Shown here one piece after another: positions 9,383-57,345 of a stretch of 64,000 nt of DNA. Both the position numbers and the translations under genes were made by a program. This DNA is from Sabellastarte sp. h YS-2021 (Eukaryota; Annelida; Polychaeta; Sabellida; Sabellidae), in assembly GCA_964017235.1 (NCBI GenBank), contig OZ024928.1:84625566-84689565 (forward strand), in the 5' to 3' direction. Numbering within the stretch: the first letter of the stretch is position 1; each line of letters starts with the position of its first letter. Below the pieces are notes generated by a model. That model ran no database searches. It saw only the letters and a program-made list of their open reading frames with translations, and was not told the DNA's origin.

Positions 9383-9546
9383 ACAAGACTACTGCCACAG
9401 TGGTTATCTCCTGCCTTAGGATAAGTAATAATGGAGAACTAGAGGAATGCTTTTGCTAACAAAAGCGAAGTGTCCCTTAAAGTTTAAAATGCTTTGTGGT
9501 TTTAATAAGCATGCTGTAAAGCTAAGAATGCAAAAAGCTGCACCGT

Positions 9547-11760
9547 ATGCTTTCCCAATACCTCTTAATACATTCTGAAGCTATAAAAGCAACAATAAAG
9601 GAGATATAAGGCAAAAACTCCAAAGCAGCTATTTATGACCCCAGTTTGGCCCATAAGGGAGGGTCGGGGAGTAAAACTGACCGGCTATTTAGACTCTCCA
9701 CATATGCTTTCCCAATACCTCTTAATACATTCTGAAGGTCTAAAAGCAACAATAAAGGAGATATAAGGCAAAACTCCAAAGCAACTATTTTATGACCCCA
9801 GTTTGACCCATAAAGGGGGGTCGGGGGATAAAACTGACCGGCTATTTAGATTCTCCACATATGCTTTCCCAATACCTCTTAATACATTCTGAAGCTATAC
9901 AAGCAACAATAAAGGAGATATAAGGCAAAAACTCCAAAGCAGCTATTTATGACCCCAGTTTGGCCCATAAGGGGGGTTCGGGGGGTAAAACTGACCGGCT
10001 ATTTAGACTCTCCACATATGCTTTCCCAATACCTCTTAATATATTCTGAAGCTATAAAAGCAACAATAAAGGAGATAAAGGCAAAAACTCAAAATCGGCT
10101 ATTTTATGACCCCACTTTGACCCATAAGGGGGGGTTGGGGGGTAAAACTGACCAGCCATTTAGACTCTCCATATGTGCTTTCCCAATACCTCTTAATACA
10201 TTCTGAAGCTATAAAAGCAACAATAAAGGAGTTATAAGGCAAAAGCTCGAAAACAGCTATTTTATGACCCCAGTTTGACCCATAAGGGGGGGCCAGGGGG
10301 TAAAACTGACCGGCTATTTAGACTCTCCACATATGCTTTCCCAATACCTCTTAATATATTCTGAAGCTATAAAAGCAACAATAAAGGAGATAAAGGCAAA
10401 AACTCAAAATCGGCTATTTTATGACCCCACTTTTACCCATAAGGGGGGTCGGGGGTAAAACTGACCGGCTATTTAGACTCTCCATATATGCTTTCCCAAT
10501 ACCTCTTAATACATTCTGAAGCTATAAAAGCAACGATAAAGGAGATAAAGGCAAAAACTCAAAATCGGCTATTTTATGACCCCACTTTGACCCATAGGGG
10601 GGGTCGGGGGGTAAAACTGACTGGCTATTTAGACTCTCCATCTATGCTTTCCCAATACCTCTTAATACATTCTGAAGCTATAAAAGCAACAATAAAGGCG
10701 ATATAAGGCAAAAACTCAAAAACAGCTATTTTATGACCCCAGTTTGACCCATAAGGGGGGGCCAGGGGGTAAAACTGACCGGCTATTTAGACTCTCCACA
10801 TACGCTTTCCCAATACCTCTAAATATATTCTGAAGCTATAAAAGCAATAATAAAGGAGATAAAGGCAAAAACTCAAAATCGGCTATTTTATTACCCCACT
10901 TTGACCCATAAGGGGGGGTCGGGGGGTAAAACTGACCGGGTATTTAGACTCTCCATCTATGCTTTCCCAATACCTCTTAATACATTCTGAAGCTATAAAA
11001 GCAACAATAAAGGAGATATAAGGCAAAAACTCAAAATCGGCTATTTTATGACCCCAGTTTGACCCATAAGGGGCGGGTCGGGGGGTAAAACTGACCGGCT
11101 ATTTAGACTCTCCATATATGCTTTCCCAATACCTCTTAATACATTCTGAAGCTATAAAAGCAACAATAAAGGAGATAAAGGCAAAAACTCAAAATCGGCT
11201 ATTTTATGACCCCACTTTGACCCATAAGGGGGGGTCGGGGGGGTAAAACTGACCGGCTATTTAGACTCTCCACATATGCTTCCCCAATACCTCTTAATAT
11301 ATTCTGAAGCTATAAAAGCAATAATAAAGGAGATAAAGGCAAAAACTCAAAATCGGCTATTTTATGACCCCACTTTGATCCATAAGGGGGGGTCAGGGGT
11401 AAAACTGACCGGCTATTTAGACTCTCCATATATGCTTTCCCAATACCTCTTAATACATTCTGAAGCTATAAAAGCAACAATAAAGGTGATATAAGGCAAA
11501 AACTCAAAATCGGCTATTTTATGACCCCAGTTTGACCCATAAGGGGGGGGGGGTCGGGGGTAAAACTGACCGGCTATTTAGACTCTCCACATATGCTTTC
11601 CCGATACCTCTTAATACATTCTGAAGCTATTAAAGCAACAATAAAGGAGATATAAGGCAAAAACTCAAAATCAGCTATTTTATGACCCCAGTTTGACCCA
11701 TAAGGGGGGGCCGTGGGGTAAAACTGACCGGCTATTTAGACTCTCCACATATGGTTTCCT
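9547..11760 (+). repeat. 157-bp tandem satellite, about 14 copies
   Basis: The marker ATGCTTTCCCAATACCTC recurs at 9547, 9704, 9861 and 10018 and onward every 156-159 bp. Copies are very similar and differ mainly in a G-run (five to nine G, near the TAAGGGGG position) and a few substitutions. Because 157 is not a multiple of three, the open frames of 72-85 codons that run through it stop and restart and are not genes. Confidence 0.95.
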
Positions 11761-13140
11761 ATTACCTCCCAGTACATTTTATAGCTCTAAATGCAATACT
11801 TAAGAAGATAATAGGGGGGTTGGCCTAAATTTAAGGCTTTCAGATTGGAAGGTGTCAGAAAATCACTCATAAATGAGACATTTTTCAAGGGATTGCTCCC
11901 AAAATCTAATCAGCTCGCGTTTTCGATAGTATGAACAGGTGTGTCAAATTATAAGGCTCTGTAGCAAGTAGTTTTTCCTGAACTGTGATGACGGGGGGTG
12001 TACTTCAAAAAATAGTTTTTGATCATGTGACCTTCATAAAGGTCAAAGGTCAAATCTAAGCATGCAGAAAAATTTTCCCACGCCTAAGGTATATAACTGC
12101 CAAATATGGTTTGAAACCTTCTAATAATAAGGGAGATATTCAAGGGAGACCATAATGCGGCGGAGGCGGCGAGGAAACTGAGGCGATAACAAATAAGCGC
12201 CCTTTCAGGGACGCTTAATTATGAGAGTTGCAGTAAGAAGACCCTACTTGACACTAAAGAAGGGGTCAAAGGTCAAAGTCAGCAATTGGAAAAGATTCCC
12301 AGGCCATGGCTTCCTATGAGTTGTTTTCACATTCTGAACCCCTAGTAGCAATGATAAGGGAGATACAAAGCCTTTTTAATAGGATAACCCCATTCAACAT
12401 TAAACATGTGATATGGTGGCTATTTTGTTTTCGAAACAGGCCCAAATTACTATAAGGCTAACTTTCCTAGCCATAAATTTTTTGTGCAAATTTGATGAAC
12501 CTAGCTGCAATATCTCAAGTTTTAGAGCATCTTGATGATTTTGAAAAACTGACTATGGCGACCATATTGTTTTTCAAAATGAGGCCAACACTGTTCACAG
12601 GTAAAACATTTGCAGGCTAGTATTTCCCATGGGCCGTTTTACATTCTAAAGCCCTAGCACCAATAATAAGGGAGATAGAAGGGTGTTTTGGTATGATGAC
12701 CCTCATTTAACTTTGAAGCAGGGGTCAAAGGTCAAATTCAACACCTGGGAAAGATTTTCAGGCCATGATTTGTTACAAGTTGTTTTCACATTCTGAACCC
12801 ATAGGAGCAATGGTAAGGAAGATATAAGGCCTTTATAATCGGATAACCCCACTCGACATTTAACATGTGATATGGCAGCCATTTTGTTTTTGAAACTAGG
12901 CCAAAAAACTATCAGGCTTGCTTTCCTAGCCATATATCTTTTGTGCAAATCTGATGAAGCTAGCTGCAATACTTCAAGATTTTGAGCATCTTTATGATTT
13001 TCGAATAACTGGCTATGGCGGCCATTTTGTTAGTCAAAATGAGGCCAAAATTTTGCTCAGACATGTTTTCATAGAAGATACCTGTATAAACGAATGAGAT
13101 ATTAAGGTTTCTGTAAAAACGTGAAGAACGGACACACGCA
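11761..13140 (+). repeat. Diverged tandem duplication (about 460 bp) inside family B
   Basis: The block from about 12245 repeats from about 12705: GGGGTCAAAGGTCAAA, then GGCCATG, CACATTCTGAACCC, ACATGTGATATGG and the TTTTGTTTTTCAAAATGAGGCC end. A perfect AGGTCAAAGGTCA also lies near 12052. A related single copy is at 22381-22760. Confidence 0.75.
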
Positions 13141-13217
13141 CAGATACACGCATGCACGGACTGAAGGAGGAAAATAATCTCCCGAACATGGCCTTTGGCC
13201 ACTGGCAGGAGATAATA

Positions 13218-15164: not shown

Positions 15165-15560
15165 AAGGTGGACTAGACCAAGGACGCATCTGGCCACAGA
15201 TGCAAGATGTATCCACCGGAAAAGGACAACAAACATAGTTTCAAAGCTACAAAGCATTTTCAATAATATGCAAGTTGTAGGCTCTTTTAAGTTTGACTCT
15301 CCTCATTTGACCTTGAAACAGGGGCCCAAGGTCAAATCTGACCACATCAGAAGATTCCTAGCTCATGGTTTCCCATAGGTTGGTTTCATATTGTAAACCT
15401 CTAGGACCAATAATAAGCGAGTTATCAGCACTTTTAACTTTTTTATCTTGTTTGACCTTGAAGGAGGGGCCCATGGTCAAATCTGACCACATCAGGAGAT
15501 TTCCAGCCCATGATTTCCTATAGGTTGGTTTGACATTGCAAACCTCTAGGACCAATAACA
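15165..15560 (+). repeat. Family C left-end fragment with two monomers
   Basis: It carries the family C left hairpin, here GCATCTG-gcca-CAGATGC (15186-15203), then TGTATCCACCGG (15208-15219). Two monomers follow at about 15283 and 15440 with the GACCTTGAAxxAGGGGCCCAAGGTCAAAT core and the CCATAGGTTGGTTT block. The right end is missing. Confidence 0.8.
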
Positions 15561-16544
15561 AGGGTGTAGTGGCTGGCTTTCTGCCAACCATGCAGTCGAA
15601 TCTTAGGACAGCAATGGGCGTTGAAATCTGTAAATCGTTCGCCCGCATATTGAAACTGTTTGCAAAGACGTTTACAGATCTGTGTAGTGAGATGTGTTGG
15701 GTATCTGTAGTGACCAGAAACGTGATGTGAAAGGTTTACAAATATAAGGGGTCGTCTGTGGGGTAACTGTGCCATTTGGATATTAATTTCGAAGGACGAA
15801 GACGTAGTATTTATGTCTGAAGCATACACAAAAAATAAGATTAGTGAACTGGTAAAATAAGATTAGCAAAATATAAAACAATCTGGAAGATATAAATTAA
15901 AGTGTTATATGGATATTTTACACAAGAAAACTGTAAGTATTTTTTATAAAATATTCAACAATTTCATTTAAAAGAAGAAAATATATTGCCTTCAGTTCAA
16001 ATGTTTGTGATCTGTGTACATGTAGCAGTCGGTACTTTTCATGTAACATCTTGTGCAGTCTTCGTCCATACATTTTTTGTGGCCATATATAGTATTAACA
16101 TTTATAAATATTTAAAAGTGAAATAAAATTACCTTTTTCAAAAGAAATATATTGCCTTTTCAGGTCTTTGTAGTAGTTATATTCCCTGATGAAAGCCATT
16201 TTGTCACATTTTCGAAAATTCAGCTCCTGAATATTAATGAGATGTACAAGTCCACAAATAGATCTTCAGTTTTACTCCGAGGCCAAGCTAGTGCGTTTTG
16301 TCTTCTTTTATATAAGCTGTTGATGATCAGTATTTTAATATCAGATATGACATATGTGCACCTTATTTTTTAACAAATTGATTTCTTTGAAACTTTTGTA
16401 AATCCATCAGCATTTGATCTGGAAGCAAATATGTAGACCTTTGTCGTTAATGAGTGCATATAAACTGCAAATTTGTAATATTTTCACTCTCAAGCAAAAC
16501 TTAAGCAACACTTTGAAACAGCTGACAGAAAAATAACTAGAGAT
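15561..16544. other. Unassigned; less AT-rich patch at 15570-15800
   Basis: 15570-15800 has more CpG than its surroundings and an open frame on the minus strand (about 70 codons), but I recognise no protein and no clear splice sites. 15960-16170 holds two similar ATATTGCCTT blocks. The remainder is AT-rich. Confidence 0.4.
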
Positions 16545-16699
16545 TGCGTCTCGACGCAGTGTATCCCCGGACGGGACATAGTTAAGGCGTGAATATGTCG
16601 GTCTTGAGCCTGTTTCCTGGAGCACCCGGTCAGGATTCTCCATAGTACCAGGTTACTCCCAAAAGCTAATCACTAGTTCTTTCACTTATATCTGTCTTT

Positions 16700-18975
16700 A
16701 AAAAGTTACATTTCATGGATCCAGAAGATCCATATAGTGATCCGGATCACTTCCAAAATTCAATTATTGCATCCTTTCACCTTTTCAGACATATTCTAAA
16801 AGTTTCATCAAAATCCGTAAATAAGTTTTTGATTTATCTTGTACACAAACACATCTGGCAGCCTGGATCCACATGATCCAGACAGTGATCCAGATTACTC
16901 CCAAAAACTAATCACTTGTTCTTTGTCCCATTTAAGACATTTCCTAAAAATTTCATAATAATCCATGCATGATTTTTGAGGCATTTGTCTTTAAAAATTA
17001 CATTTCTTGGATCCAGAAGATCCAGATAGTGGTCCAGATCACTTGCAAAATTGAATCATTTCTTCCTTTTACCACTTCTTCCTTTTACCATTTGTAACAT
17101 ATCCTAAATATATGAAAGTCCATCCTAAGATTATGTGGCAGCCTGGATCCAGATGATCCAGACAGTGATCCAGATCACTCCAAAAATTTAATCACTTGTT
17201 CCTTGTACCATTTAGGCCATTTGCTGAAACAATCCATCCATAACTATTTGCGGTATCTGTCTTTAAAAATTACATTTCATGGATCCAGAAGATCCATATA
17301 GTGATCCGGATCACTTCAAAAATTCAATCATTTCATCCTTTTACCTTTTCAGATATATATCCTGAAAATTTCATCAAAATCCGTCAAAACTTTTTGAGCT
17401 ATTTGTCTTTAAAATTATATTTCATGGATCCAGAAGATCCAGATAGTGGTCCAGATCACTCGCAAAATTGAATCATTTTTTCCTTTTTACCACTTCTTCC
17501 TTTTACCTTTTCTAACATATCCTAAAAATATCATCAAAATTCATCCTAAAATTCTGTTGCAGCCTGGATCCAGATGATCCAGATCACTCCAAAAATGTAA
17601 TCACTTGTTCCTTGTACCATTTAGGTCATTTGTTGAAAATATCATCACAATCCATCCATAACTTTTTGATGTATCTGTCTTTGAAAATTACATTTCATGG
17701 ATCCAGAAGATCCATATAGTGATCCGGATCACTTCCAAAATTCAGCATTTATCCTTTTACCTTTTCAGACATATCCCGAAAATTTCATCAAAATGCGTCC
17801 ATAAGTTTTTCAGCTACATTGTACACAAACACATCTGGGAGCCTGGATCGAGATGATCCAGACAGTGATCCAGATCACTCCCAAAATTTAATCACTTGTT
17901 CCTCGCACCATTTAGGTCATTTGCTGAAAATGTCATCACAATCCATCCATAGCTTTTTGAGGTATCTGTCTTTAAAAATTACATTTCATGGATCCAGAAG
18001 ATCCATATAGTGATCCGGATCACTTCCAAAATTCAATCATTTTATCCTTTTACCTTTTCAGATATATCCGGAAAATTTCATCAAAATCCGTCCATAAGTT
18101 TTTGATTTATCTTGTACACAAACACATCTGGCAGCCTGGATCCAGATGATCCAGATCACTCCCAAAATCTAATCACTCGTTCCTTGTCCCATTTAGGACA
18201 TTTCCTGAAAATTTCATCTAAATCCACCCATGACTTTTTGAGCTATTTGTCTTTAAAAATTATATTTCATGGATCCAGAAGATCCAGATAGTGGTCCAGA
18301 TCACTCGCAAAATTGAACCATTCTTCCTTTTACCACTTCTTCCTTTTACCATTTGTAACATATCCTAAAAATATCATCAAAATTCATCCTAAAATTATGC
18401 TGCATCCTGGATCCAGATGATCCAGACAGTGATCCAAATCACTCCAAAAATGTAATCACTTGATCCTTGTACCATTTAGGTCATTTGCTGAAAATGTCAT
18501 CACAATCCATCCATAACTTTTTGAGGTATCTGTCTTTAAAAAATTACATTTCATGGATCCAGAAGATCCATATAGTGATCCAGATCACTTCCAAAATTCA
18601 TCCATTTCATCCTTTTACCTTTTCAGACATATCCTGAAAATTTCATCAAAATCCATCCATAAGTTTTTGAGCTATATTGTACACAAACACATCTGGCAGC
18701 CTGGATCCGGATGATACAGACAGTGATCCAGATCACTCCCAAAATCCAATCACTTCTTCCTCGTCCCATTAAGGACATTTCCTGAAAATTTTATAAAAAT
18801 GCACCCATAAGTTTTTGAGTTATTTGTCTTTAAAAATTAAATTTCATGGATCCAGAAGATCCAGACAGTGATCCGGATCACTCCCAAAATTTAATCATAT
18901 CTTCCTTTTACCATTTTGGACATATCCTGAAAATTTTATCAAAATCCATCTGTCAGTTTTTGAGTTATCTTGTTC
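16700..18975 (+). repeat. GATC-rich dimeric satellite of D1
   Basis: Two alternating half-units of about 140 bp, one with CATGGATCCAGAAGATCCA and one with GCCTGGATCCAGATGATCC, give a dimer of roughly 280-290 bp. About eight dimers are present with one register slip near 17276-17429, where two units of the first type are adjacent. GATC occurs several times per half-unit, mostly as GGATCC, TGATCC and GATCAC. Confidence 0.92.
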
Positions 18976-18994
18976 ACAAACAAACAAACAAATA

Positions 18995-19430
18995 GAGGGC
19001 CAAAAATGACCCTCGGTCAGGTACTTTGGCGGTCAGTGGATGACCTCAAATGAAGATCTGTAACCGGTAAGCCTGGATGCTGGTACTCCATTATGTACTC
19101 AACCTCCAAAGCCATTTTCCATAGTTTCCATGCAATGTAGTCAGCATTAAGTGTGAAAATATCTCCAAATTTGCCAAAAATGACCCTTGGTCAGGTACTT
19201 TGGCGGTCAGTGGATGACCTTACATGAAGATCTGTACCCAGTAAGCCTGGATGGTAGAAGTCCATCATGTACTCAACCTCCAAAGCCATTTTCAATAGTT
19301 TCCATGCAATATAGTCAGCATTAAGTGTGAAAATATCTCCAAAAAGGCCAAAAATGACCCTCGGTCAGGTACTTTGGCGGTAAGTGGATGACCTTCAATG
19401 AAGAGCTTCAAGGTTAATTTTCTGCATGCT
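18995..19430 (+). repeat. 165-bp tandem repeat, about 2.5 copies
   Basis: GGTCAGGTACTTTGGCGGTMAGTGGATGACC recurs at about 19013, 19190 and 19365, each with the AAGCCTGGATG and CAAAGCCATTTTC blocks between. It lies between the GATC satellite and the right end of D1. Confidence 0.85.
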
Positions 19431-19746
19431 TACAGAGGACATATATATGTATTATATATACCAGCCATAGGATGATCTGACTTTCTGTATAGGAGAACTG
19501 GGCCAAAAAGTGAAAAAATGGCCAAAAACTGACCTTTAAGAGGTCACCAGTGACCTTGAGATTGAAGGTCAAGGTCACAAAACAATAGCGTTCGTGGCAT
19601 TGCCCATATATACCCACATACCAAATTTGAAAGTTCTAACTAAAATATTTTTTAAGTTATCGCGTCCAAAAGGAAATCTCTGCGACGGCAGCGGCGGCGT
19701 GACCGCACTGAATCCTAAGTATCCCCGACTTTCGTCCGGGGATACA

Positions 19747-20090
19747 ATAAAACATTTGAGAACTTCAAGGAAATGGGAACCCCAATAGCATCTTACAGTG
19801 GTTGAATGTAGAACTATGGAGTTGTACATACTTTTATTAAAGGCTGTCGTCACGGATAAGTAAAATAATATCCATTCATTTTTCTCTCTATCGTAGGCCA
19901 ATATTAGAAGATTTTACAACAAACAGTTTCTGAAATTGGAGGGGCACTGTACATGGAATATATTTGCAATTATTCAAGTCATCTTTGTGAGAAATGCAAA
20001 TAAATAGCGATAAACATGTAGAAAGCAAATTAACTCGGGAATTTCATTCTCGTAAATGATTCTTATATAACCCTCAAGTGTTGCACAGTC
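19747..20090. other. Unassigned
   Basis: No repeat or exon recognised between D1 and the foldback sequence at 20.09 kb. Confidence 0.5.
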
Positions 20091-20440: not shown

Positions 20441-20621
20441 GCACACATTTTCAGTTCTAGAAACTAGCAGACAAAACCGTTAACAAAGACTCACTCGAGT
20501 ATGCAAAGACAATGGGGAAAACAATAGTTTCTAGGACATACGGGACCTTACACAAAGGCAGACATAGTTCCAGACAAGCTTTTTACCTTATAAAATATAC
20601 TTTAAAAACATTTTAAAAAAA

Positions 20622-21862
20622 TATTTTTCAACACCATGAGATATTGAAGTAGTGTAACAGTACAAAGTTCAAGATACTTTCACAGCAGTGTCAGTTATAT
20701 TAAGGTCCAAATACAGTAGAACCTCTATTATCCGACACCTCTTGGGAGAGTAAAAATTAGGTCGGATAATAGAAAGGTTGGATAATAGGAAGGCTAAAAT
20801 AACAGGCTTAAATGGAGTTGGGAGAGTGGGTCTTAGTTCGGATAATAGAGGGTCGGATAATAGAGGTTATACTGTAATGCTTAAGTAGAGAAAATAATAT
20901 CTAAGGAAAATAAATGGATGTAAAGGTGAAGTATTAAAACAAGATAATTCAACAATAAAATGACAGCATTTATCAGTAAACCAAAAATAGCCGAATTATG
21001 GTTTGGATGTTTTGAATATTACCCATGCATACAGAAGTGGCAATACATTCAATGAATGCTTATGTGTGGTGTTGGAGAAAAGCCTCTGGCTCACTTGATG
21101 AAATTCAATCTCTTACAACGGGAACTTACAAAAGGAAATTCTTAACGAATTCTAATATGACTTTTAACAGTGCTTAATCTGCATCAACAGACAGACCCAA
21201 AGGTGCAACAAGATTTTAAAGGTCAATACAGCAAGGTCAAAGGTCAATCAGTGTCACACCATGATGTGGCACACCTAAAACCCTCAAGCAATGTCCCTAC
21301 CAAGTATAAACTTCCTACACCTTACAGTCTCTGAGATATAGCCCGGACAACATTTTATAGGTCAAGTTCACTATGGCAAGGTCAAAGGTCAAATCAAGGT
21401 CACATCATGACATTGCACACCTACTACCCCCAACCAATGTCCTCACCAAGTATCGGCTTCCTACACCTTACAGTTTCCGAAATATAGCCCGGGCAAGATT
21501 TTACAGGTCAAAGTCACTACGGCAAAGGTCAAATCAAGGTCACACCATGACGTTGCACAACCCCCAACCAATGTCCCTACCAAGTATCAACTTCCTACAC
21601 CTCAGGGTTTCCAAGATATAGCCCTGACAGGATTTTATAGGTCAAGGTCACTACGGCAAGGTCAAAGGTCAAATCAAGGTCAGACCATGACGTTGCACAC
21701 CTACACCCCCCCAACCAATGTCCCTGCCAAGTATGAACTTCCTACACCTTACGGTTTCTGAGTTACGGCCCGGACAAACTATTTCCGCCCGCCCGACCGC
21801 CCATCCGGACACCATGGGTGAAAACAATACCCCGACAGCCCTTCAGGGGCTGTGGGGTAAAA
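20622..21862 (+). mobile_element. Family A copy A2 (left end lost)
   Basis: Body matching A3 and A4 from the CAACACCATGAGATA block, about four 143-bp monomers (21230-21760) with AAGGTCAAAGGTCAAATCAAGG cores, a GC-rich CCGCCCGCCCG tract, and the right-end palindrome at 21829-21858 (arms ACCCC..ACAGCCC / GGGCTGT.GGGGT). The left hairpin and TACCCCACAGCC motif are absent. A pogo-like MITE is inserted at 20714-20874. Confidence 0.82.
20714..20874. mobile_element. pogo/Tigger-like MITE
   Basis: 161 bp, with terminal inverted repeats CAGTAGAACCTCTATTATCC and the inverse of CAGTATAACCTCTATTATCC, flanked by TA on both sides (20712-20713 and 20875-20876). TA duplication and this terminal sequence are typical of the pogo branch of Tc1/mariner. 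Family A copy A3 has the empty site (around 22938, GGTCCAAATAAT). No coding capacity. Confidence 0.9.
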
Positions 21863-21979
21863 ATGGCAGAGTGTATAATATACACCTTAATGTACAGATA
21901 TGTGTACAAATATTATAAAGAATTTTGATATTTAAGGGCTTAAAAAGCCGATTTAAAATCGCGGCCACAACTCAGTACA

Positions 21980-22380
21980 TAACTTGAATCAAAGATTCAA
22001 CTAATAAGGGAGATATAAGCACTTTTCATGACTGAAAAGAAACGTTCCTGGTGGCCATCTTGTTTTTAAAAGTGAGGCACAAAAATATTTCCATTCAAGA
22101 TTTTGTAATGATTAACATATCCTGCGAATTTGAGATCTCTACCTATAACACCATTTGTTCTAGAGCACTAGAGGGCCAACAAAACTCCTTGCTGTAAGTC
22201 GAAAAACATCCCTGTTTTTTCAAAATGAGGCCAAAAATATTTCCAGGTAAGATTTTATGGTTATGAATATATCCTGCAAATTTAAGAAGTCTAACTATAA
22301 TATCCTGGCCTCTAGAGGGGTAAAAAGATTCTCTACACACTGTGGCGGCGGCGTACTCATGCGTAATCTGTCGTATCCAC
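21980..22380 (+). repeat. Family C right-end fragment
   Basis: Matches 37500-37880 and 41270-41655: GGGAGATATAAGCACTTTTCATGACTG, the GGTGGCCATCTTG block twice, CTCTAGAGGGGTAA, and a GGCGGCGG tract before GTATCCACC (22371-22379). The palindrome is cut in half, so the copy is truncated at its tip. Confidence 0.82.
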
Positions 22381-22760: not shown

Positions 22761-22816
22761 AGTAATCTTGAGAAATAATTCAATTAAGTTTGACAGGATT
22801 TTAGGCAATACTTTTG

Positions 22817-24445
22817 TAGAAAATAGCATCAGAGATGCCTGTACCCCACAGCCTCGGGAAATAGTTTTCAACACCATGAAATATAGAAATAGTGAAACAG
22901 TACAAAGATCAGGATACTTTCAGAGTTATATAAAGGTCCAAATAATAAATATTTAAGTAGAGAAAATAATGTCGAAGAGAAAGAAAATGTGTGTAAAGAT
23001 AAAGAAGTAAAACAAGAGAATTCAACAGCAAGATGACAGCATTAATCAGTAAACTAAAAATAAAGAAGCTGTAAAATTTATTAATTGGAGAATAGCTGTC
23101 AATGAAAATTTAATAGCACAATTATGTAAAAGTAAAGTACATATAATAATAAGTTGCAGTAATCCATATGTCTTTGTCATAAGAGAAACATGTCTCAAAT
23201 ACGACAGGTGAACAAACTTTGGCAGAGCTAAAGTTAAAGGTCACACCATGATGCACACCTACATCTCGTAAACCAATGTTCCTACCAAGTGTCAAACTTC
23301 TACACCTTACATAATCCAAGAAATAGCCTGGACAAAACTTTGAAACTCATGGTCACTACAACAAGGTCATAGGTCAAATCAAGATCACACCATGATTTGC
23401 ATACCTATAACCCCTAAGCAATGTCCCTACCAACTATCAACTTCCTCCCCCTTATGGTTGCCAAGATATAGCCCGGACAACACATTATACAGCAAGGTCA
23501 CTACAACAAGGTCAAATCAAGGTCACACCATGATATTGCATACCTGCAATCCCCAACCAATGTTACTACCGCGTTACTACAACTTCCTACACATTATGGT
23601 TTCTGACATATAGCCCAGACAATATTATATAGGTTAAGGTCACTACAACAAGGTCAAAGGTCAAATCAAGGTCACACCATGATGTTGCACACCTACAACC
23701 CCTAATGAATGTCCCTATCAAGTATCAACTTCTTACACCTTACAGTTTCCGAAATATATTCCAGACAAGATTTTATAGGTTAAGGTCACTATGACAAGGT
23801 CAAAGGTCAAATCAAGGTCACACCATGACATTGCACAACCCCCAATCAATGTCCCTACCACGTATCAACTTGCTAAATGTTACGGTTTCCGAGATACAGC
23901 CCGGACAAGATTCAATAGGTCAAGGTCACTATGGCAAGGTCAAAGGTCAAATCAAGGTCACACCATGACATTGCACAACCCCCAACCAATGTCCCTACCA
24001 AGTATCAACTTCCTACACCTCAGGGTTTCCAAGATATAGCCCTGACAGGATTTTATAGGTCAAGGTCACTACGACAATGTTAAAGGTCAAATCAGGGTCA
24101 CACTATGACGTTACACACCTACACCCCCTAACCAATGTCCCTACCAAGTATCAACTTCCTACTACACCTTATGGTTTCTGACATAGCCCGGACAAGAAAT
24201 TATATGACAAGGTCAAAGGTCAAATCTAGGTCGCACCATGATGTTGCACACCCACAACCAATGTCCCTACCAAGTATCAACTTTCTTAACCTTACGGTTT
24301 CCGGAATATAGCCTGGACAAGATTTTATAGGTCAAGGTCACTAAGGCAAGGTCAAAGGTCAAATCAAGGTAACACCATTACTTTGCAGCAAGTATCAACT
24401 TCCTACACCTAAAGGTTTCTGAGATACAACCCGGACAAACTTTGA
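22817..24445 (+). mobile_element. Family A copy A3 (right end lost)
   Basis: Left end intact: hairpin GCATC-aga-GATGC (22826-22838) then TACCCCACAGCC (22842-22853). The body is followed by about eight 143-bp monomers (23230-24440) with repeated AGGTCAAAGGTCA cores. The copy stops in ACCCGGACAAACTTTG, just before the GC-rich tract and palindrome seen in A2 and A4. Confidence 0.87.
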
Positions 24446-27690: not shown

Positions 27691-27797
27691 GATTGGGTAT
27701 TTTGCAATGGAACACATCCTTTGTACGCCATAAATATGAGGAAAACATGATCACCCACTATTATATGAAATTCAGCTATTCATTCAACAATGTATTT

Positions 27798-28612: not shown

Positions 28613-28639
28613 TGGACACTTAAAAACCCTTTATCTATA

Positions 28640-30768: not shown

Positions 30769-30974
30769 CACTCTCGCCTCCCACCTCTGCGGCCGGGGTT
30801 CGATCCCCGTCATTGCCGTAAGTGGGAAAGCTGGTAGTTGCTTGCCGTTGGTCGGCAGTTTACAGTACAGAACCCTAGCGAACTATATGTACTGGTTTCC
30901 TCTGCCCTTCCAACTACCCGTCGTGATATGACCTGTACAGTGTTGAAAGCGACGTAAAACCCCAAATAAATAAA
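30769..30974 (+). mobile_element. tRNA-derived SINE, 5' truncated
   Basis: 206 bp bracketed by a perfect 13-bp target-site duplication TATAATTTGTGGG (30756-30768 and 30975-30987). A canonical Pol III B box, GGTTCGATCC, is at 30797-30806. The sequence starts at the tRNA anticodon-arm region, so the A box is lost. The 3' tail GCGACGTAAAACCCC followed by AAATAAATAAAT is the kind shared by mollusc SINEs and their partner LINEs. It is not a functional tRNA gene because the 5' half is missing. Confidence 0.92.
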
Positions 30975-30987
30975 TATAATTTGTGGG

Positions 30988-47800: not shown

Positions 47801-48086
47801 AGTAATATAGACACCTTTTCTTCACTGAAAATGAAAAGTTGAAATTTTGCAACTGAAATAAATTGTGCTAAATATATCCATTAACTATGCAAAAAGTTTA
47901 TTTCTTTTAATGCGGGCACATCCTTGATACTCAAGGTGGTAGCCTAGTACATGTTTAATGTCAGGATGTGTGCCAGTTCTTGCCCTTCAGGACGTTTATG
48001 TTTTTTTGCATACTTATGCCATCTGTCTCTCGCCAATATATCCATCTTTTAAATATTGGCTGAGAGACAAATTAATCAGTCTAATT
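44895..48086. other. Unassigned AT-rich DNA with several short palindromes
   Basis: No gene supported. Notable: a perfect hairpin with 13-bp arms at 45910-45937 (AGATTTGGTTTCA / TGAAACCAAATCT), an inverted pair TCTGTCCCAAAAT / ATTTTGGGACAGA at 47068-47112, and a direct repeat of about 57 bp (47315-47370 and 47490-47547). 45850-46530 has several GAGAC/GTCTC-type blocks and may be an old MITE. Confidence 0.45.
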
Positions 48087-51000
48087 ATATCCCCAGACGA
48101 AAGTCGGGGATATATTGGATTCAGGTCCGTCGCGCCGCCGCCGTAGAAATTTCATTGTGGACGTGATAACTCAAAAACGGATTAATATTTTTTTTTCAAA
48201 CTTGGTACACATGTTAAGGATGCCCAAAGGAAGATCCCTATTTTAAGGTGACCTTAAACTCCCAATAATAAAGAACTTATGGCCACCTTAAGGTCAGAAA
48301 TTGCCACTTAGAGCCCTCTAGGTCACAAACTATGAGGCTTATCTGCCTCAAATTTTACCTGAGAACACATTGATATATTCTTAGTACATGTGCCGAAAAT
48401 CAAGACTTTAAGTTGAGGAGAAAATTGTCTTTGAGGCCCATAAAGACCCCACTTAGGACTTTTTTCTTATATTTTTAACTTATTTTGCCCTATAATTTGG
48501 AAGTGGTAATTCTGATGAGTTTCAAACTGCACTAGATGTAACTCTTATATGTAATCCTTGTCTGTGAAAAATTTAAAGGCTGTAGGTTTCCTGTTAGGCC
48601 GACTTAAGATCTCAAAATTGCCCACAGAGACCCAATTTATGGACTTTTTGCCATCTTCAAGCACTGTAGCTTTCAAACTATGTCTCTCATCTAAGTGAAA
48701 TATCATCTGAGAATATATCAATATGTTTTTCTTGTATGTACTCCAAAATTTAGGCCTTTAATAGACATTTAACCCATGTATGAGGACCATAAATCCCCAC
48801 CCGAGTGACCCTTTTTAGACATTTTTCACATATTTTGCCCTGTAACTTGGAAATGGTAAGTCTGAGAAGTTTCAAACTGTATTAGATACATATTCTATGT
48901 GTAATCTTAGTATGTGACAAATTTTAAGTCTGAAGCTTTAATTTGAAGGCCACATTGAGGTCTCTGACGGGCTCCCAAAGACCCAGTATTTGGACTTTTT
49001 GCCACCTTTAAGCCTTGTGACTGTTAAACTATGTGACTGATAGGACTGAAATCTCATCTGGGAATACATTATTATATCCCCAGACGAAAGTCGGGGATAT
49101 ATTGGATTCAGGTCCGTCGCGCCGCCGCCACCGCCGCCGTAGAAATTTCCTTGTGGACGCGATAACTCAAAAACAAATTAATATTTTTTTTTCAAACTTG
49201 GTACACATGTTAAGGGTGCCCAAAGGAAGATCCCTATTTTAAGGTGACCTTAAACTCCCAGTAAAAAAGAACTTATGGCCACCTTAAGGTCAGAAATTGG
49301 ACTTTTGGCCACTTAGAGCCCTGTAGGTCACAAACTATGATGCTCAGCTGGCTGAAATTTTACCTGACAACACATTAATATGTTCTTAGTACATGTGCCG
49401 AAAATCACGACTTTAAGTTGAGGAGAAAATTGTGTTTGAGGCCCATAAATACCCCCACTTGGGGATTTTTTGCTATACTTTTCACATATTTTGCCCTATA
49501 ATTTGGAAGTGGTAATTCTGATGAGTCTCAAACTGCGCTAGGTATAACTTTGATATGTAATCCTTGTCTGTAGAAAATTTTAGGGCTGTAGGTTTACCCA
49601 AAGGGGTCGACTTAAGGTCTCAAAAGTGCCCACAGAGACCCAATTTATGCACTTTTTGCCACTTTCAAGCACTATAGCTTTCAAACTATGTCTCTCATCT
49701 AAGTTAAATATCATCTGGGAATATATCTATGTGTTTTCTTATATGTGCCCCAACATTTAGGCCTTTAATAGACAGTTAACCTGTGTATCAGGACCATAAA
49801 CACCCACCCGAGTGACCCTTATAAGACATTTTTCACATCTTTTTCCCTGTAACTTGGAAATGGTAAGTCTGAGAAGTTTCAAACTGTATTAGATATATAT
49901 TCTGTGTGTAATCTTAGTATGTAACAGATTTTAAGTCTGAAGCTTTAATTTTGAAGGTCAAATTGAGGTCTCTAAAAGGCTCCCAAAGACCCAATATTTG
50001 GACTTTTTGCTACTTTTAAGCCCTGTGACTGTCAAACTATGTGAGTGATAGAGCTCAAATCCTATCTGGGAAGATATTAGTATGTTATTTATATATGTGC
50101 CAAAAATTAAGGCTTTAAGAAGACATTTAACCTGTGTATGAGGACCATAAATCCCCACCCGAGTGACCATTTTTAGACATTTTTCACATATTTTGCCCTG
50201 TAACTTGGAAATGGTAAGTCTAAGAAGTTTCAAACTGTATTAGATGCATATTCTATGTGTAATCTTAGTATGTGACAAATTTTAAGTCTGAGGCTTTAAT
50301 TTGAAGGCCACATTTAGGTCTCTAGAAGGCCCCATAAAGACCCAGTATTTGGACTTTTTGCCAATTTTAAGGCCTGTGACTGTTAAACTATGTGACTGAT
50401 AGAGCTGAAATCTCATCTGGGAATACATTATTATGTTCTTTTTACATGTGCCAAAAATCAAGGCTTCAAGTAGACATTTAACCTGTGTATGAGGACCTTA
50501 AACACCCACCTGAGTGACCCTTTTAAGACATTTTTCACATATTTTGCTCTGTAACTTGGAAATGGTAAGTCTGAGAAGTTTCAAACTTTATTAGATACAT
50601 ATTCTATGTGTAATCTTAGTATGTAACAAATTTTAAGTCTGAAGCTTTAATTTGAAAGCCACATCGAGATCTCTAAAAGGCCCACAGAGACCCAATATTT
50701 GGACTTTTTAACCACCTTTAAGCCCTGTGACTGTTAAACTATGTGATTGATGGAGCTGAAATCCCATCTGGGAATGCATTATTATGTCCTTTTTACATAT
50801 GCCGAAAATCAAGGTTTTTAGTAGACATTTAACCTGTGTATGAGGGCCATAGACACTCGCCCAAGTGCCTTTTTGGATATTTTTTCCGTATTTTGCCCTG
50901 TTATTTGGAAATGCTTAGTGTGACAAGTCTTAAACTGTATTATATATAATTTTTGTTTGTTATGTATGTCCCCCAAAAAGTTTCAGATCTGTTGTTTAAT

Positions 51001-54000
51001 TGCTAAGGTCTCTTTAACAATTGTAAAATGCCCACAGAAACCCAATTTATGGACATTATGCCACTTTAAAGCCCAGTAACTGTCAAACTATGTGGGCTAT
51101 AGAGCTGAAATCTTTGAATTTTTAAAAGGAAATGCCTGTCTATTTAAATTTTGAATATTAATAATGTTATGGCTATCTTTGTCTTTTAAGAACTTATTTT
51201 TGTGTGTTATACCTCTGCTTGCTGAGTTTTTAACTTTTTAAAATGAAACTGGTTAAACATATTCAAGTAGACAAAATGGACACTTTAAGTGAGCTTTAAG
51301 TCCCAATATTAATGAAATTATATCCTTATGTAGTAAAAGTAGGGGATTTTTAACCCTCAACTAGCCCAGTTTTATTCAACTTGCCTCAGTTAATTTTGAC
51401 ACAGCTCCTACAGTTATGAACTCATTTCAGTTGATAATCACATACTTAAAATTCTCAATTCTTTTTGTATTTGAGTACCCCTTTTATATAGATTGTTTGT
51501 TTACCATTTATGCATCCCCCACCCGGATTCCCCCCACCCACCTCTGGGACCTCCAGCTATATTGAGTGACACTAAATAAACAAAGGTATTTAATGATATC
51601 AGATGAGAAACAAAGAACTCAATGGGGTTGCAGATCTTGTGTAATAGTGAGAGAGGTGTGGAGAAGGGGAGAGGGGTGGGGGTGGGAGGTGGTGGGCTTC
51701 ATTACATATAACACAAAGGGGAGTCAGAACTGAGATTGTGTCACATATTTAGGTTGCATATATATGGACCACATATATAGGTATAGAGGAAATGAATAAC
51801 TGAAAACAATTTGCAAATTCTAAAAATAATATAATAAAATAATAATATAAATAATTTTTTTTTAAATAATATTTTATTTGTGAACAAATATAGAAACAGA
51901 TATGCGCTTTTGGGATTATGAATTTTAGAATGGACATTGAATCATCAATCATTTAAATACTTTGAAGGAAGATTGAAAAGTATGATGAGTTGAGTTAAAA
52001 ATAATATTTTATTTGTCAACAAATATAGAAACAGATATGCTCTTTTGGGATTATTATTTTAGAATGGACATTCAATCATCAATCATTTAAATACTTTGAA
52101 AATAGGTTTAGAGTTATCATTGCAGGAAGATTGAAAATATAATTTGAGTTATGTATTCGGCGTCTGGGGATACACCATCTTCCTTGGAAGATATAAACAG
52201 AGTAGATTGATGTGCTGAAGTTCATATAATAATGGGTAATTATGTTTTAAAAAATTCCCGATCAAAACCTGTGGCGTGAGTGATGACCTGTCTGGGGATA
52301 TGTTGGCGCCGAGTTGGCCCAATCTAGTTATGTTCTTTTTACATGTGCCAAAAATCATGGCTTCAAGTAGACATGTAAACTGTGTATGAGGACCATAAAC
52401 ACCCACCCGAGTGACCTTTTTAAGACATTTTTCACATATTTTGCTCTGTAACTTGGAAATGGTAAGTCTGAGAAGTTTCAAACTTTATTAGATATATATT
52501 CTATGTATAATCTTAGTATGTGACAGATTATAAATCTGAAGCTTTAATTTGAAGGCCACATCGAGATCTCTAAAAGGCCCACAGAGACCCAATATTTGGA
52601 CTTTTGCCACCTTTAAGCCCTGTGACTGTTAAACTATGTGATTGATGGAGCTGAAATCCCATCTGGGAATGCATTATTATGTCCTTTGTACATGTGCCGA
52701 AAATCAAGGCTTTTAGTAGACATTTAACCTGTGTATGAGGGCCATAAACACTCACCCAAGTGACCTTTTTTGACATTTTTTTCCGTATTTTGCCCTGTTA
52801 TTTGGAAATGCTTAGTGTGACAAGTCTTAAACTGTATTATATATAATTTTTGTTTGTTATGTTTGTCCCCCAAAAAGTTTCAGCTCTGTAGTTTAATTGC
52901 TAAGGTCTCTTTAACAATTGTAAAATGCCCACAGAGACCCAGTTTATGGATATTATACCACTTTAAAGCCCTGTAACTGTCGAACTATGTGGGTCATAGA
53001 GCTGAAATCTTTGAATTTTTCAAAGGAAGTGCCTGTCTATTTAAATTTTTATTAATAATGTTATGGCTATCTTAGGCTTTTAAGTACTTATTTTTGTGTG
53101 TTATCTCTCTGCTTGCTGAGTTTTTAACTTTTTAAAATGAAACTGGTTAAACATATTCAAGTAGGCAAAATGGACACTGTTATTTTCTGGTGAGCTATAA
53201 GTCCAATATTAATGAAATTATAGCCTTATGTAGTAAAAATAGGGGATTTTAAACCCTCAACTAGCCCAGTTTTATTCAGTTTGCCTCAGTTAATTTTGAC
53301 ACAGTTCCTACAGTTACTAACTCATTTCAGTTGATAATCACATTCTTAAAATTCTCAATTCTGAATTATTATTATAAATCTGTTCTTGTGGTTTGATAAT
53401 TTATATTTAATTCTGGAGGTATATAATTTTCCTGTTGGACATTCCTTATTTATATATTTGATTTTATTTTAGTGATAAGATTAACTGAGGTTTTTGTATT
53501 TGATTACCCCTTTTGTTTGTTTACCATTTGTGCTGTAGCACTCTATCTCTTTGTAGTCCCACCCCCATCCACCTCTGGGACCTCCAGCTATTGAGTGACA
53601 CTAAATAAACAAAGGTATTGAATGATATCAAATGAGAAACAAAGAACCAGACTTTTCAGTGGGGTTGCAGATCTTCTGTAACAGTGAGAGAGGTGTGGAG
53701 AAGGGGAGAGGGGTGGGGTGGGGTTGGGAGATGGGGTTTGCTTCATTATCGAATAAGACAAAGGGGAGTCAGAACTGAGATTGTGTCACATATTTAGGTT
53801 GCATATATATGGACCACATATATAGGAATTGAGGAAATGAATAACTGAAAAACAATGCAAATTCTAAAAATAATATAATAAAATAATAATATAAATAATA
53901 TATAATTTTTAAATAATATTTTATTTGTGAACAAATATAGAAACAGATATGCGCTTTTGGGATTATGAATCATTTAAATACTTTGAAAATAGGTTCAGAG

Positions 54001-54560
54001 TCACCCTTTGCAGGAAGATTGAAAAGTATGATGAGTTGAGTTAGAAATAATATTTTATTTGTCAACAAATATAGAAACAGATATGCTCTTTTGGGATTAT
54101 TAATTTGGAATGGACATTCAATCATCAATCATTTAAATACTTTGAAAATAGGTTCAGAGTCACCCTTTGCAGGAAGATTGAAAAGTATGATGAGTTGAGT
54201 TAGAAATAATATTTTATTTGTCAACAAATATAGAAACAGATATGCTCTTTTGGGATTATTAATTTGGAATGGACATTCAATCATCAATCATTTAAATACT
54301 TTGAAAATAGGTTCCGAGTTATCACTGCAGGAAGATTGAAAATATGCTCTGTTGAGTTATGTATTCGGCGTCTGGGGATACACCATCTTCCTTGGGAAGA
54401 TATAAACTTAGTAGATTGATGTGCTGAAGTTCATATAACTTTTCCCAAGATTTATGGCATACAACAAATGGCTTACATAAAAAATTCCCGATCAAAACCT
54501 GTGGCATGAGTGATGACCTGTCTGGGGATATGTTGGCGCCGAGTTGGCCCAATCTAGTTT
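48087..54560 (-). mobile_element. Family D element (D2/D3), enlarged by internal duplications
   Basis: Palindromes with arms ATATCCCC/GGGGATAT lie at 48087-48113 and again near 49073, each followed by TGGATTCAGGTCCGTCGCG and a (GCC)n tract; these are right-end structures in minus orientation. The left-end structures are GTCTGGGGATAC plus hairpin ATCTTCC-tt-GGAAGAT at 52162-52192 and again at 54370-54401, with a further GTCTGGGGATAT at 52290 and 54518. The interior is a 349-bp unit, about seven copies at 48.1-50.9 kb and two more at 52.3-52.8 kb. The first about 985 bp are duplicated in tandem. No coding frames. Confidence 0.75.
50425..54560 (-). repeat. Tandem duplication of 1.9 kb within the family D element
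   Basis: 50425-52325 and 52326-54560 are copies of each other: the same order of 349-bp units, unique tail, G-rich tract and left end. The second copy is longer because an AAATAATATTTTATTTGTC sub-repeat expanded from two to three units (53920-54330) and an extra segment lies at 53365-53490. G-runs able to form a quadruplex occur in both (51666-51686 and 53703-53728). Confidence 0.88.
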
Positions 54561-54850: not shown

Positions 54851-55920
54851 TTACCCCACAGCCTTTAAAGGCTGTTGGGGTATTGTTTTCACCCATGGTG
54901 TCCTGATGGGCGGGCGTTTGGGCAGGTGGTGGAAAAAAATTTATCCGGGCTATATCACAGAAACCGTAAAGTGTATGAAGTTGATACTTGGTAGGGACAT
55001 TGGTTAGGGGGTGTAGGTGTGCAACATCCTGGTGTGACCTTGATTTGACCTTTGAACTTGCCGCAGTGACTTTGAGTTTGAAAATTTTGTTCGGGCTATA
55101 TCTTGGGAACCGTAAGGTGTAGGAAGTTAATACTTGGTTTGGACATTAGTTAGGGGTTGTAGGTGTGCAACGTCATTGTATGACCTTGATTTGACCTCTG
55201 ACCTTGCCATAGTGACCTTGACCTATAAAATCTTGTCCGGGCTATATCTTGGAAACCGTAAGGTGTAGGAAGTTGATACTTGGTAGGGACATTGGTTAGG
55301 GGTGTAGGTGTGCAACGTCATGGTGTGACCTTGATTTGACCTTGTGTAAGTGACTTGACCTATAAAATCTTGTCAGGGCTATATCTCAGAAACTAAAATC
55401 ATAAGGTGTAGGAAGTTGATACTTGGTAGGGACATTAGTTAGGGGGTGTAGGTGTGCATCGTCATGGACCATGACCTTTGATCTTGCCATAGTGACCTTG
55501 ACCTATAAAATATTTTCTGGGCCATATCTCGGACAAAAGTAAGGTGTAGGAAGTTGATACTTGGTAGGGACATTGGTTAGGGGGTGTAGGTCTTTAACTT
55601 TGGCTCTGTGCGTTCACCTACCATATTTGAGACATTTTTCTGTTATGACAAAGATATATGGATTGCTGCAACTGTTTATTATATACACTTTTACATAATT
55701 GTGCATTTTCCATTGAAAGCTATTTTCCAATTAATAAATTTTACAGCTTAATGAATTTTAAGTTAACTGATTACTGCTGTCATCTTGCTATTGAATTGTC
55801 TTGTTTTAATACTTCATCTGTACATACATTTTCTTCCTCTTAGATGGTAGTACTTCTATATCTCGTGCTGTTAAAAACTATTTCCCCAGGCTGTTGGGTA
55901 CGGGCATCTCTGATGCTATT
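54851..55920 (-). mobile_element. Family A copy A5, both ends present
   Basis: Minus-strand copy. The right-end palindrome is 54853-54881 with TACCCCACAGCC at 54852-54863. The left end at 55889-55916 is a one-mismatch inverse of TACCCCACAGCC followed by hairpin GCATC-tct-GATGC (55904-55916). It has about five monomers, with the GACCTTGATTTGACC core in inverse. It has a shorter array than A4 and a degenerate right part. Confidence 0.87.
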
Positions 55921-55939
55921 TTTTTCATGACTGTATGTT

Positions 55940-56806
55940 TCTCTGTTTGTTAACAAAATTACGCAAATACTATTTCTTGGATCTACCTGAAACAAAAGCA
56001 GAAGATGGGTCTTGGTCCAACTTAGATTCCATTAAATTTTGAGAGTGATCTGGATCACTGTCTGCATACAAAAAAAATATAAATCTTCCAATTACTTATT
56101 ATTATGTGCCTTGTTTTTTTCTTCAGAATTACGCATATATTACTGCTTAGATCTTCCTGACAAAAATCAAAAGATGGGGGTTTGGTCCAACTGAGATCCC
56201 ATTAAATTTTGAGACTGATCTGGATCACTGACTTGATACAAAAAATATAAAAATCCGGATTTTCTCCCTTTATTTATTAGTGAGCCTTTTTCAAAATAAT
56301 CGGACCTTTTAAACTATGCATCTAATTCACTACCGCCAAGGAGGTTTTGTTTTCATTACCATTTGTTTGCTTCTCTGTCTGGTACCCTGTTTGTTAGCAG
56401 GATTACGGAAATAGTACTGCTTGGATCTTCCTGAAAAACAAAAAAAAAAATGAAGATAGGTCTTGGTCCACCTTAGATCTCATTAAATTTTCTTAGAGTG
56501 ATCTGTATCATCGCCTGGATACAGATAAAATAATCCAGATTTCCCATTTACTTATGTGTCTTTTTTAATAATAAATGTCTGACCTGTTGATGGAGGCACA
56601 GTTTCTTTTGTTGATGTATATATGATCCAGCAAAGAACCATTATCTTTTGTGTGTGTTTTAAATTTTTCGATTAACTTATTAGTGAGGGGTATGTTGAAT
56701 CCATGATTGTTTGTCTGATATTTTACATAACTATATATCTCCCATCTTTTTGTTCTAACATTTTGATTGAACTTGATCATGTTCCATCTGGGGATACACT
56801 GCATCA
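55940..56806 (-). repeat. Decayed family D copy with GATC-type monomers
   Basis: Three monomers (about 55960, 56135 and 56395) contain GAGWSTGATCTGGATCACTG, the inverse of the D1 satellite core. A family D left-end motif TCTGGGGATACACTGCATC lies at 56787-56805. The right palindrome was not found. Confidence 0.65.
56565..56770 (-). pseudogene. Possible LINE endonuclease scrap
   Basis: An open minus-strand frame includes GSLLDHIYIN, which resembles the conserved DHI block of APE-type LINE endonucleases. It is short and sits next to a family D end. The identification rests on this one motif. Confidence 0.35.
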
Positions 56807-57263
56807 AACAATTTCAAGTTGTTACATGCCTTGGCAGAGGTATGCTCTCTTTCAGGACTCTTGTTTGTTCTGTTTTTTTGAGAGACATGTCTTAATGATA
56901 AACGGAATTACATTATGTAGATTAATTTCTTCAAGTTTATATTTCTGTAAATTTAATTAATTTCAAGAAATTTATGAAGAATATAGCATTTTGAAATTCT
57001 ATGTACATATTTCTGTGAATTTTATGAGTGGGGTTGCTTTTATGTGTTGCATAAACTATTTTAAAATAATGTGTGTATTTAATGGTTGAATAATCATTAA
57101 AATAATCTATACACTTAAAAGTTGAACACTTATTTAACAACAATCAGATAAATAGACAGATTATTTTCATATGTTGTATTGGTGGTGCAGGCAAATCTAA
57201 TTTAACTTATGTGCATTTACTTTTGGCTCATTATCCTTAACCTGTTGACAATTTAATTACGGT
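56807..57263. other. Unassigned AT-rich DNA
   Basis: No feature recognised. Confidence 0.5.
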
Positions 57264-57345
57264 ATATCCCCAGACAAAAGTCGGGGAAATACTGGATTCA
57301 GCTTTGTCGCTCTGCCGCCACAATTTGGTCAGGGTCAAATAGATC
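57264..57345 (-). repeat. Solo family D right end
   Basis: ATATCCCCAGAC...GTCGGGG palindrome (57264-57287), then CTGGATTCAGC and a degraded GCCGCC tract. No matching left end is found within the window. Confidence 0.75.

Follow-up and report, generated by a model that had tools for sequence, protein, structure and literature searches.

A 64,000-nucleotide stretch of the Sabellastarte sp. h YS-2021 genome (contig 2, 84,625,566-84,689,565; hereafter the window) holds four repeat families, A, B, C and D, with exact ends, which we assign with high confidence to the non-autonomous HLE2 (Helitron2/Helentron, HINE/pearl-like) rolling-circle transposons. The genome comprises 1.786 Gb in 647 contigs, apparently numbered in order of size, of which 14 are probably chromosome-sized (the fourteenth measures 99.7 Mb, the fifteenth 1.3 Mb). 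Complete copies in the window are A3, A4, B1, C1, C2 and D1, together with two D elements, one nested in the other. Their coordinates, and those of the partial copies, are as follows; ATIR stands for asymmetric terminal inverted repeat, a slash marks the boundary between element and flank, and a caret marks an insertion or cutting point.

6406..7056, minus strand: A fragment, array and flank, no ends.
20600..21859, minus strand: A1, 5' end and hairpin at 21859; 3' end lost or degenerate.
22820..24443, minus strand: A2, array and 3' end (ATIR 22842-22853, hairpin), without a 5' end.
31882..33892, minus strand: A3, complete; 5' end at 33892 (TACCCCACAGCC and hairpin, GGGC tract), 146 bp array 32366-33807, 3' ATIR 31900-31911, hairpin GCATC..GATGC, TATTTT.
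54852..55918, plus strand: A4, complete; 5' end at 54852, array 54936-55591, 3' ATIR 55889-55900 (11/12) and hairpin.
9384..13215, minus strand: B1, complete; 5' end at 13215, A/TTATCTCCTGCC and hairpin; 157 bp array 9546-11810; 3' ATIR 9404-9415, weak hairpin, CTTG/TTTT.
28646..29455, minus strand: B2, 3' ATIR 28665-28676 (one mismatch), CTTG/TTTT; 151 bp array; no 5' end identified.
22002..22380, minus strand: C0, 5' part only; outer ATIR arm lost.
36860..37903, minus strand: C1, complete; A/TTGTATCCACC hairpin at 37903; 3' ATIR 36892-36902, hairpin, GGTCTAG/TT.
38148..41675, minus strand: C2, complete; 5' hairpin and CCG tract at 41675; 147 bp array; 3' ATIR 38180-38190, hairpin, GGTCTAG/TT.
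15173..15566, minus strand: C3, 3' ATIR 15207-15217 (one mismatch), hairpin, CTAG/TC; partial array.
16537..19747, minus strand: D1, complete; A/TTGTATCCCCGGAC hairpin at 19747; 145 bp array; 3' ATIR (13/13), hairpin GCGTC..GACGC, CTCTAG/TT.
48085..54557, plus strand: outer D, split by the inner D element.
49072..52327, plus strand: inner D, 3,256 bp, inside the 351 bp array of the outer D; A/TTATATCCCC...AATCTAG/TT.
27618..27803, minus strand: degenerate D 3' end, CCTAG/TTTT.
57262..57321, plus strand: degenerate D 5' end, without the A/TT context.

All four families are built on one plan, in which the inverted repeats are placed asymmetrically: one is terminal and the other lies 20-35 bp inside. 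At the 5' end the ATIR folds with downstream bases into a hairpin, and at the 3' end its inverted copy stands directly upstream of a second hairpin, which is the end structure published for HLE2 and Helitron2 (PMC3627910). The two copies match exactly in A3 and B1 (12/12), C1 and C2 (11/11) and D1 (13/13). Between them lie tandem arrays, with monomers of about 146 bp in A, 157 bp in B1, about 147 bp in C, 145 bp in D1 and 351 bp in D2, and a CGG/CCG-rich tract lies just inside the palindrome in A, C and D. Central tandem repeats and a microsatellite tract after the 5' inverted repeat are HINE features that A-D have, the tract being least clear in B. An earlier reading of this DNA, here called the original prediction, had already proposed the motifs, the short outer hairpin and the palindrome with the inverse motif, which we recovered in the window and in genome counts, as well as the internal satellite arrays and the GC tract of A, C and D, seen again in the window. 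Its view of a common terminal structure stands, with the direction turned round: the true 5' end is what it called the right end and the true 3' end is its left end, so that it had read the elements from 3' to 5'. Likewise, the exact inverse arms it gave for B1, C1, C2 and D1 were confirmed, and the 12/12 given for A4 became 11/12.

In family A the 5' end consists of TACCCCACAGCC, a loop, GGCTGTCGGGGTA and a GGGC-rich tract, and the 3' end of GGCTGTGGGGTA, CGG, GCATC-TCT-GATGC and TATTTTT. The 5' hairpin passed a script test in 19 of 20 fetched A copies, the exception (L016) having one change in the inner arm, and a hairpin followed the 3' repeat in 19 of 20 (L017 has none). Both D elements end in GTCTGGGGATAT, a hairpin and AATCTAG (52327 and 54557), about 150-175 bp past an internal copy of the motif with its own ATCTTCC..GGAAGAT hairpin (beside 52166 and 54374). 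This hairpin, which the original prediction took for a terminal form of D, is thus internal; our guess is that it represents an older 3' end, since bypassed. Among the first 32 listed D 5' ends, a distal 3' end was found within 12 kb downstream for 25 and for none of the remaining seven; the distance was 2.8-4.5 kb in 20 of the 25 pairs, with a median of 3,272 bp for all 25. Two ATIR positions distinguish D1 from D2, and the 3' ATIR matches both changes and the 5' hairpin arm one of them. A stretch of about 128 bp in the outer D (53363-53490) is missing from the matching place (51462) of the inner D. The 12-base B repeat TTATCTCCTGCC occurs in the genome with several very different hairpin interiors, which often hold a second small hairpin, such as GGCC-GAA-GGCC.

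Evaluated as single strands, the 5' hairpins were more stable than shuffled sequences in A, B, C, D and the Helentron described below (z from -3.4 to -9.5). At the 3' end this was the case for A (z -3.5), C (-2.8) and, weakly, D (-1.5). A mechanical scan of the window for the grammar of an inverted k-mer plus a stem, compared with 40 shuffles, returned 22 rows with a 9-mer and a 7 bp stem (shuffle mean 2.4, maximum 5), five with a 9-mer and an 8 bp stem (mean 0.575, maximum 2) and seven with a 10-mer and an 8 bp stem (mean 0.225, maximum 1), rows that include non-element AT-rich and satellite pairs and count some elements several times. The scan recovered C1, C2 and D1 and joined D 5' ends to the internal D motif; it missed A and B because it required unbroken stems.

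We counted each end pattern across the whole genome, using the same pattern reversed as a control for chance. The A motif, present at both ends, occurred 33,027 times versus 78 for the reversed pattern, whereas no reversed match was found for the A 3' end with its hairpin (12,146), the D 5' hairpin (7,208), the D 3' end (7,053), the C 5' hairpin (4,850) or the B 5' hairpin (934); the last figure overcounts B 5' ends, because 17 of the listed places resemble B 3' ends read backwards. These counts bear on the possibility that A-D are satellite arrays whose edges carry palindromes by chance and which were dispersed by recombination instead of transposition, as the tandem arrays in all four families might suggest. 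With exact ends in hundreds to thousands of copies and zero for reversed patterns, with flanks outside the ends that are unrelated among copies, and with precise empty sites (see below) that refute it for C and D, we consider this explanation vanishingly improbable.

Nested insertions supplied exact empty sites without a second genome. A D element on contig 11, 99.3% identical over 1,506 bp to the inner D of the window, lies in the Rep domain of a Helentron; an intact Helentron on contig 3 provides the empty site, CATTGTTTA^TTTTGGATAG, and the filled site reads CATTGTTTA/TTATATCCCC...AATCTAG/TTTTGGATAG. For a C element inserted in D, the empty site is CCCAGTTTTA^TTCAACTTGCC and the filled site A/TTGTATCCACC...GGTCTAG/TTCAACTTGCC, a junction that can also be written A/TTGTATCC...GGTCTAG/TTCAACTT. 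Comparison of the nested D of the window with other monomers of the array was ambiguous by four bases, with TTAT on each side; other copies exclude a 4 bp duplication, as the outer D has TTAT to its left and TTTT to its right, and D1 has TTGT and TTAT. In all three nested sites the target was T-N-A followed by TT. C and D insert without a target duplication longer than a fixed TT. Because TT flanks every intact junction seen, it is either the element's own or a fixed 2 bp duplication, and the junctions do not distinguish a cut at A^TT from one at AT^T, an ambiguity of the type described for FoHeli (PMC5148889) and similar to the difficulty with flanking Ts in Helentron work (PMC4067079).

Cut-and-paste transposons with terminal inverted repeats, that is, miniature inverted-repeat transposable elements (MITEs) carrying satellites and making a fixed TT target duplication, would also have short inverted repeats at both ends and TT at every intact B, C and D junction seen, and pearl was initially described as a MITE (PMC7492417). 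We nevertheless find such an origin highly improbable, given that the two best empty sites show no longer or variable duplication, that the inverted repeats are asymmetric, one terminal and one 20-35 bp internal, and that a Rep-helicase gene is enclosed by the same end plan. The original prediction had proposed empty sites as its check, and for C and D they agree with it in showing no duplication beyond a possible fixed TT, although they place its named motif inside the element in one D form.

Target preferences separated A from the other families. Twenty D 5' flanks, taken before TATCCCC, all carried TT at positions -3 and -2 and T at -6, with A at -4 in 16 of them (T in three, G in one), and CTAG was followed by TT in 10/10 D copies for which the 3' side was fetched. 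TNA preceded TT in 6/6 C copies, five of them independent as two share one flank, and in three of four fetched B copies, the remaining one having TTT; the search patterns for C and B themselves started with TT. TNA/TT is also the context of B1, C1, C2, D1 and both D elements in the window. The A 5' flanks (18 fetched and two window copies; L016 and L017 had failed the script test) carried T at -4, -3, -2 and -1 in 20, 19, 17 and 20 of 20 cases, and no A. Family A inserts in T-runs, and B, C and D mostly in TNA^TT. The insertion between T and T suggested by the original prediction fits A, in T-runs. The 3' terminus, CTRR in canonical Helitron1, is CTAG in C and D, CTTG in B and neither in A, and the A^T target of Helitron1 is mostly seen in B, C and D; B, C and D have in common a start at A/TT and an end at CT(A or T)G/TT. 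None of the four families has the 5' TC without 5' hairpin or ATIR that defines Helitron1.

The Rep family PF14214 matched 24 places in the genome. One of them, on contig 3, is an open frame of 2,245 amino acids without stops that contains Helitron_like_N (91 bits), PIF1 (100 bits) and Exo_endo_phos domains, the last at 24.2 bits (E 3.3e-5), just below its 24.5 cut-off. The fusion of a Rep-helicase with an apurinic/apyrimidinic (AP)-type endonuclease, which defines Helentrons, was found in this autonomous element only. The limits of identity with a 99% copy on contig 4 bound the element. At the 3' end it carries CGCAACCCGCCT, TTT, a weak stem and CTCTTG/TT; at its inner 5' end AGGCGGGTTGCG pairs with AACCCGCCT, and 600 bp farther upstream lies an outer 5' end that has one change (AGGTGGG), indicating that the 5' terminus is doubled and that the element measures about 12.3 kb. 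The 3' ATIR matches the inner 5' ATIR at 12/12 positions and the outer at 11/12, and both 5' ATIRs have a hairpin. The Helentron ends thus follow the same plan as those of A-D, on a fifth motif. The element is located in a B-type array, and four paralogous sites, 76-77% identical, show no duplication beyond the T-run.

The Helentron 5' hairpin occurred 1,550 times in the genome versus 0 reversed. Three of five fetched loci with this hairpin (L108, L109 and L110) end in Helentron 3' sequence, 99-100% identical over 129-182 bp, and the two checked for tandem repeats, L108 and L110, carry a 168 bp array; no Helentron 3' end was found within the fetched stretch of L107 and L111. The contig 3 element is a Helentron, and these three loci are short non-coding derivatives of it, on the same plan as A-D. 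In L107-L109, two or three Helentron-type 5' ends stand in a row, 744-764 bp apart, and the same sequence precedes each inner 5' end, as in multiple 5' termini.

We compared Rep domains from 15 of the 24 places, three of which contain stops, at a 65% cut-off. They formed seven clusters, with no pair between clusters above 63%:

Helentron cluster: L032, L034, L035 and L037, 97-98% identity.
L041 and L042: 92%.
L030 and L036: 99%.
L031, L039 and L040: 73-78%.
L038 and L043: 89%.
L029: singleton.
L033: singleton.

Several replicase lineages therefore coexist in the genome, as the original prediction had supposed. The alignment of the Helentron with the frames around L029 and L036 extends through the endonuclease region of the Helentron. 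In L036, together with L103 and L104, a frame resembling by eye a reverse transcriptase, possibly a nested long interspersed nuclear element (LINE), lies between two pieces of the endonuclease region.

A shared plan on different motifs is what the published rule for families predicts, because identical subterminal inverted repeats (subTIRs) of at least 11 bp make a family (PMC4067079). We compared the stretch after the 5' hairpin, which takes in the GC tract, in 15 pairs, with 200 shuffles each. Similarity was reached by 0/200 shuffles for C2-D1, C2-D, B1-C2, D1-Helentron and L033-D, by 1/200 for A-Helentron and A-D1, and by 5-7/200 for A-D, D-Helentron, C2-Helentron, B1-A and B1-Helentron; A-C2 (100/200), B1-D (42) and L033-C2 (123) showed none. 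The GC tract may raise the C-D similarity, and the B1-C2 similarity may reflect a shared array-like stretch. As several family pairs share subterminal sequence, the plan looks inherited, and the description of the families as sequence-unrelated was too strong, considering these five of 15 pairs and the shared termini of B, C and D.

An alternative is a new rolling-circle group outside Helitron2/Helentron, invented several times. The mixture, in B, C and D, of Helitron-like TT...CTAG or CTTG ends and TNA^TT targets with a Helitron2-like ATIR and 5' hairpin speaks for it. Yet the domain order is that of Helentrons in the sole autonomous element whose ends are known, the literature already describes TT...CTAG ends between A and T in proto-Helentron (PMC4067079), and the family pairs with shared subterminal sequence suggest inheritance, the pairs A-C, B-D and L033-C showing none; we judge such a group very unlikely. 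The plan shared by A-D matches the end structure published for HLE2; since the Helentron of the same genome has this plan with a fifth motif, we take the four families as a rich instance of something known and not as a new group. Of the two proposals made by the original prediction, the nearest relatives, non-autonomous Helentron/HLE2 elements of the pearl/HINE type, proved to have the same end plan, and an undescribed group or repeated independent invention was not borne out.

Several observations weigh against the assignment of A-D to HLE2. A Rep gene inside A, B, C or D ends was not found, so that the expectation of Rep genes within the same ends was realized for the Helentron, with its own motif, and not for A-D. 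L041 (15.6 kb), L029 and L036 (14.6 kb each), the three loci read at length, had no A-D ends of their own, the A-D-type ends around them belonging to nested or neighbouring elements only; other large Rep frames (e.g. L034, 1,783 amino acids) were not extended. An A-D motif lay within ±1.5 kb of only three of the 24 Rep places (D at L032, D-like at L033, A at L045), which we read as nested or neighbouring elements, as was shown for L032 only. The 3' hairpins of D1 (z -0.85), the Helentron (-0.2) and B (+0.96) were no better than shuffles. Joining the flanks of nine window elements gave no empty site within the window, 20 A copies gave a single one, at 70% identity and consistent with no duplication, and the site used for the Helentron is a paralogue of 76-77% identity. 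Every intact junction seen is compatible with a fixed 2 bp TT duplication. Finally, one of four B copies, four of the 20 D copies and the degenerate 5' end of D at 57262 lack the A in TNA/TT. A comparison of the window with proteins of three Rep lineages gave three matches, of 14-32 aligned positions (E 0.13-0.74), and no remnant.

For A-D as HLE2 elements, the published mechanisms (PMC4778049, PMC3627910) suggest that an HUH Rep would nick before the 5' end, at TNA^TT in B, C and D, and that a helicase would peel off one strand until paused by the 3' hairpin. Another nick, at CTAG^TT (C and D), CTTG^TT (B) or the T-run (A), would free a circle, which would then join a corresponding nick in the target. 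Probably the two ATIRs of an element pair with each other or are bound by one and the same Rep domain, and either would hold them to one sequence inside a family while letting them vary from family to family. The satellite array would be passenger DNA typical of HINEs.

It is about an even question, in our judgement, whether the genome contains two HLE2 classes with different cutting rules, T-run (A and the Helentron) versus TNA^TT (B, C and D), the ends of the latter combining a Helitron1 cut (CTAG or CTTG ^T, A^T target) with the ATIR and 5' hairpin of Helitron2. If so, nicking by one rule, T-N-purine^TT, would account for the majority of 5' junctions as well as for the targets and the circle junction of C and D; the TNA^TT class would then be the animal counterpart to proto-Helentron, moved by a Rep lineage of its own. 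The least familiar part is the occurrence in an animal of HLE2 ends together with TT...CTAG and TNA^TT, each piece having been published (proto-Helentron, FoHeli, Helraiser); the combination was not found in the literature searched, which included few subscription journals. Six end-motif letter strings were also searched in the literature, and all the matches listed were unrelated by title; two patterns searched in viral contigs gave no match. Exact ends and target rules are thus available for two classes within one genome, beside an open Helentron frame, and the hundreds to thousands of copies are a resource for the co-evolution of ATIRs, hairpins and Rep lineages.

The window also contains a DIRS-type retrotransposon (6-6339, minus strand), bounded by inverted repeats at 6-159 and 6184-6339 that are 97% identical, with a recombinase-like frame (711-1904) whose Phage_integrase score is under the cut-off, and a reverse transcriptase with RNase H (1739-4041). 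A short repeat at 30769-30976 has three more copies, 94-96% identical, beside the Rep fragment L048.

Comparison with known systems was made with the descriptions available in the cited texts. Oyster HINEs consist of a subTIR, an inverted repeat and a microsatellite, an array, and a subTIR with a palindrome (PMC7492417). Cg_HINE of Crassostrea gigas and pearl resemble A-D in the 11-12 bp 5' subTIR with a complementary inverted repeat 1-12 bp away, the microsatellite, the satellite-like array, and the 3' subTIR followed by a palindrome; the description also reports no target site duplication and several families per genome (PMC7492417). They prefer TT, whereas B, C and D mostly enter TNA^TT and end in CTAG or CTTG. 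Helitron2 shares the 5' ATIR in a terminal hairpin, the 3' ATIR immediately upstream of a hairpin, and compensatory changes; in contrast, its algal example enters between TTTT and T/C, and satellite arrays are absent from the description given (PMC3627910). Helentron, HINE and DINE-1 elements are alike in the Rep-helicase-endonuclease (here in the autonomous element), subTIRs, 3' stem loop, T-run insertion (A and the Helentron here) and deletion derivatives with repeats, but B, C and D do not enter plain T-runs (PMC4067079). Proto-Helentron from Phytophthora shares 5' TT, 3' CTAG and insertion between A and T with C and D, although it is described as Helitron-like in structure, without endonuclease, and C and D add an ATIR and 5' hairpin (PMC4067079). 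FoHeli1/2 from Fusarium have hairpins at both ends, a 12 bp ATIR, multiple 5' termini and a target stated as between TNAT and A, and differ in starting with TCAG or similar and ending in ATTTT (PMC5148889). Helraiser and canonical Helitron1 share the CTAG^T 3' end, with CTTG in some insertions, the A^T target and a hairpin 11 nt upstream of the 3' end (PMC4778049); unlike A-D, they begin with 5' TC, the ATIR and 5' hairpin being Helitron2 features (PMC3627910).

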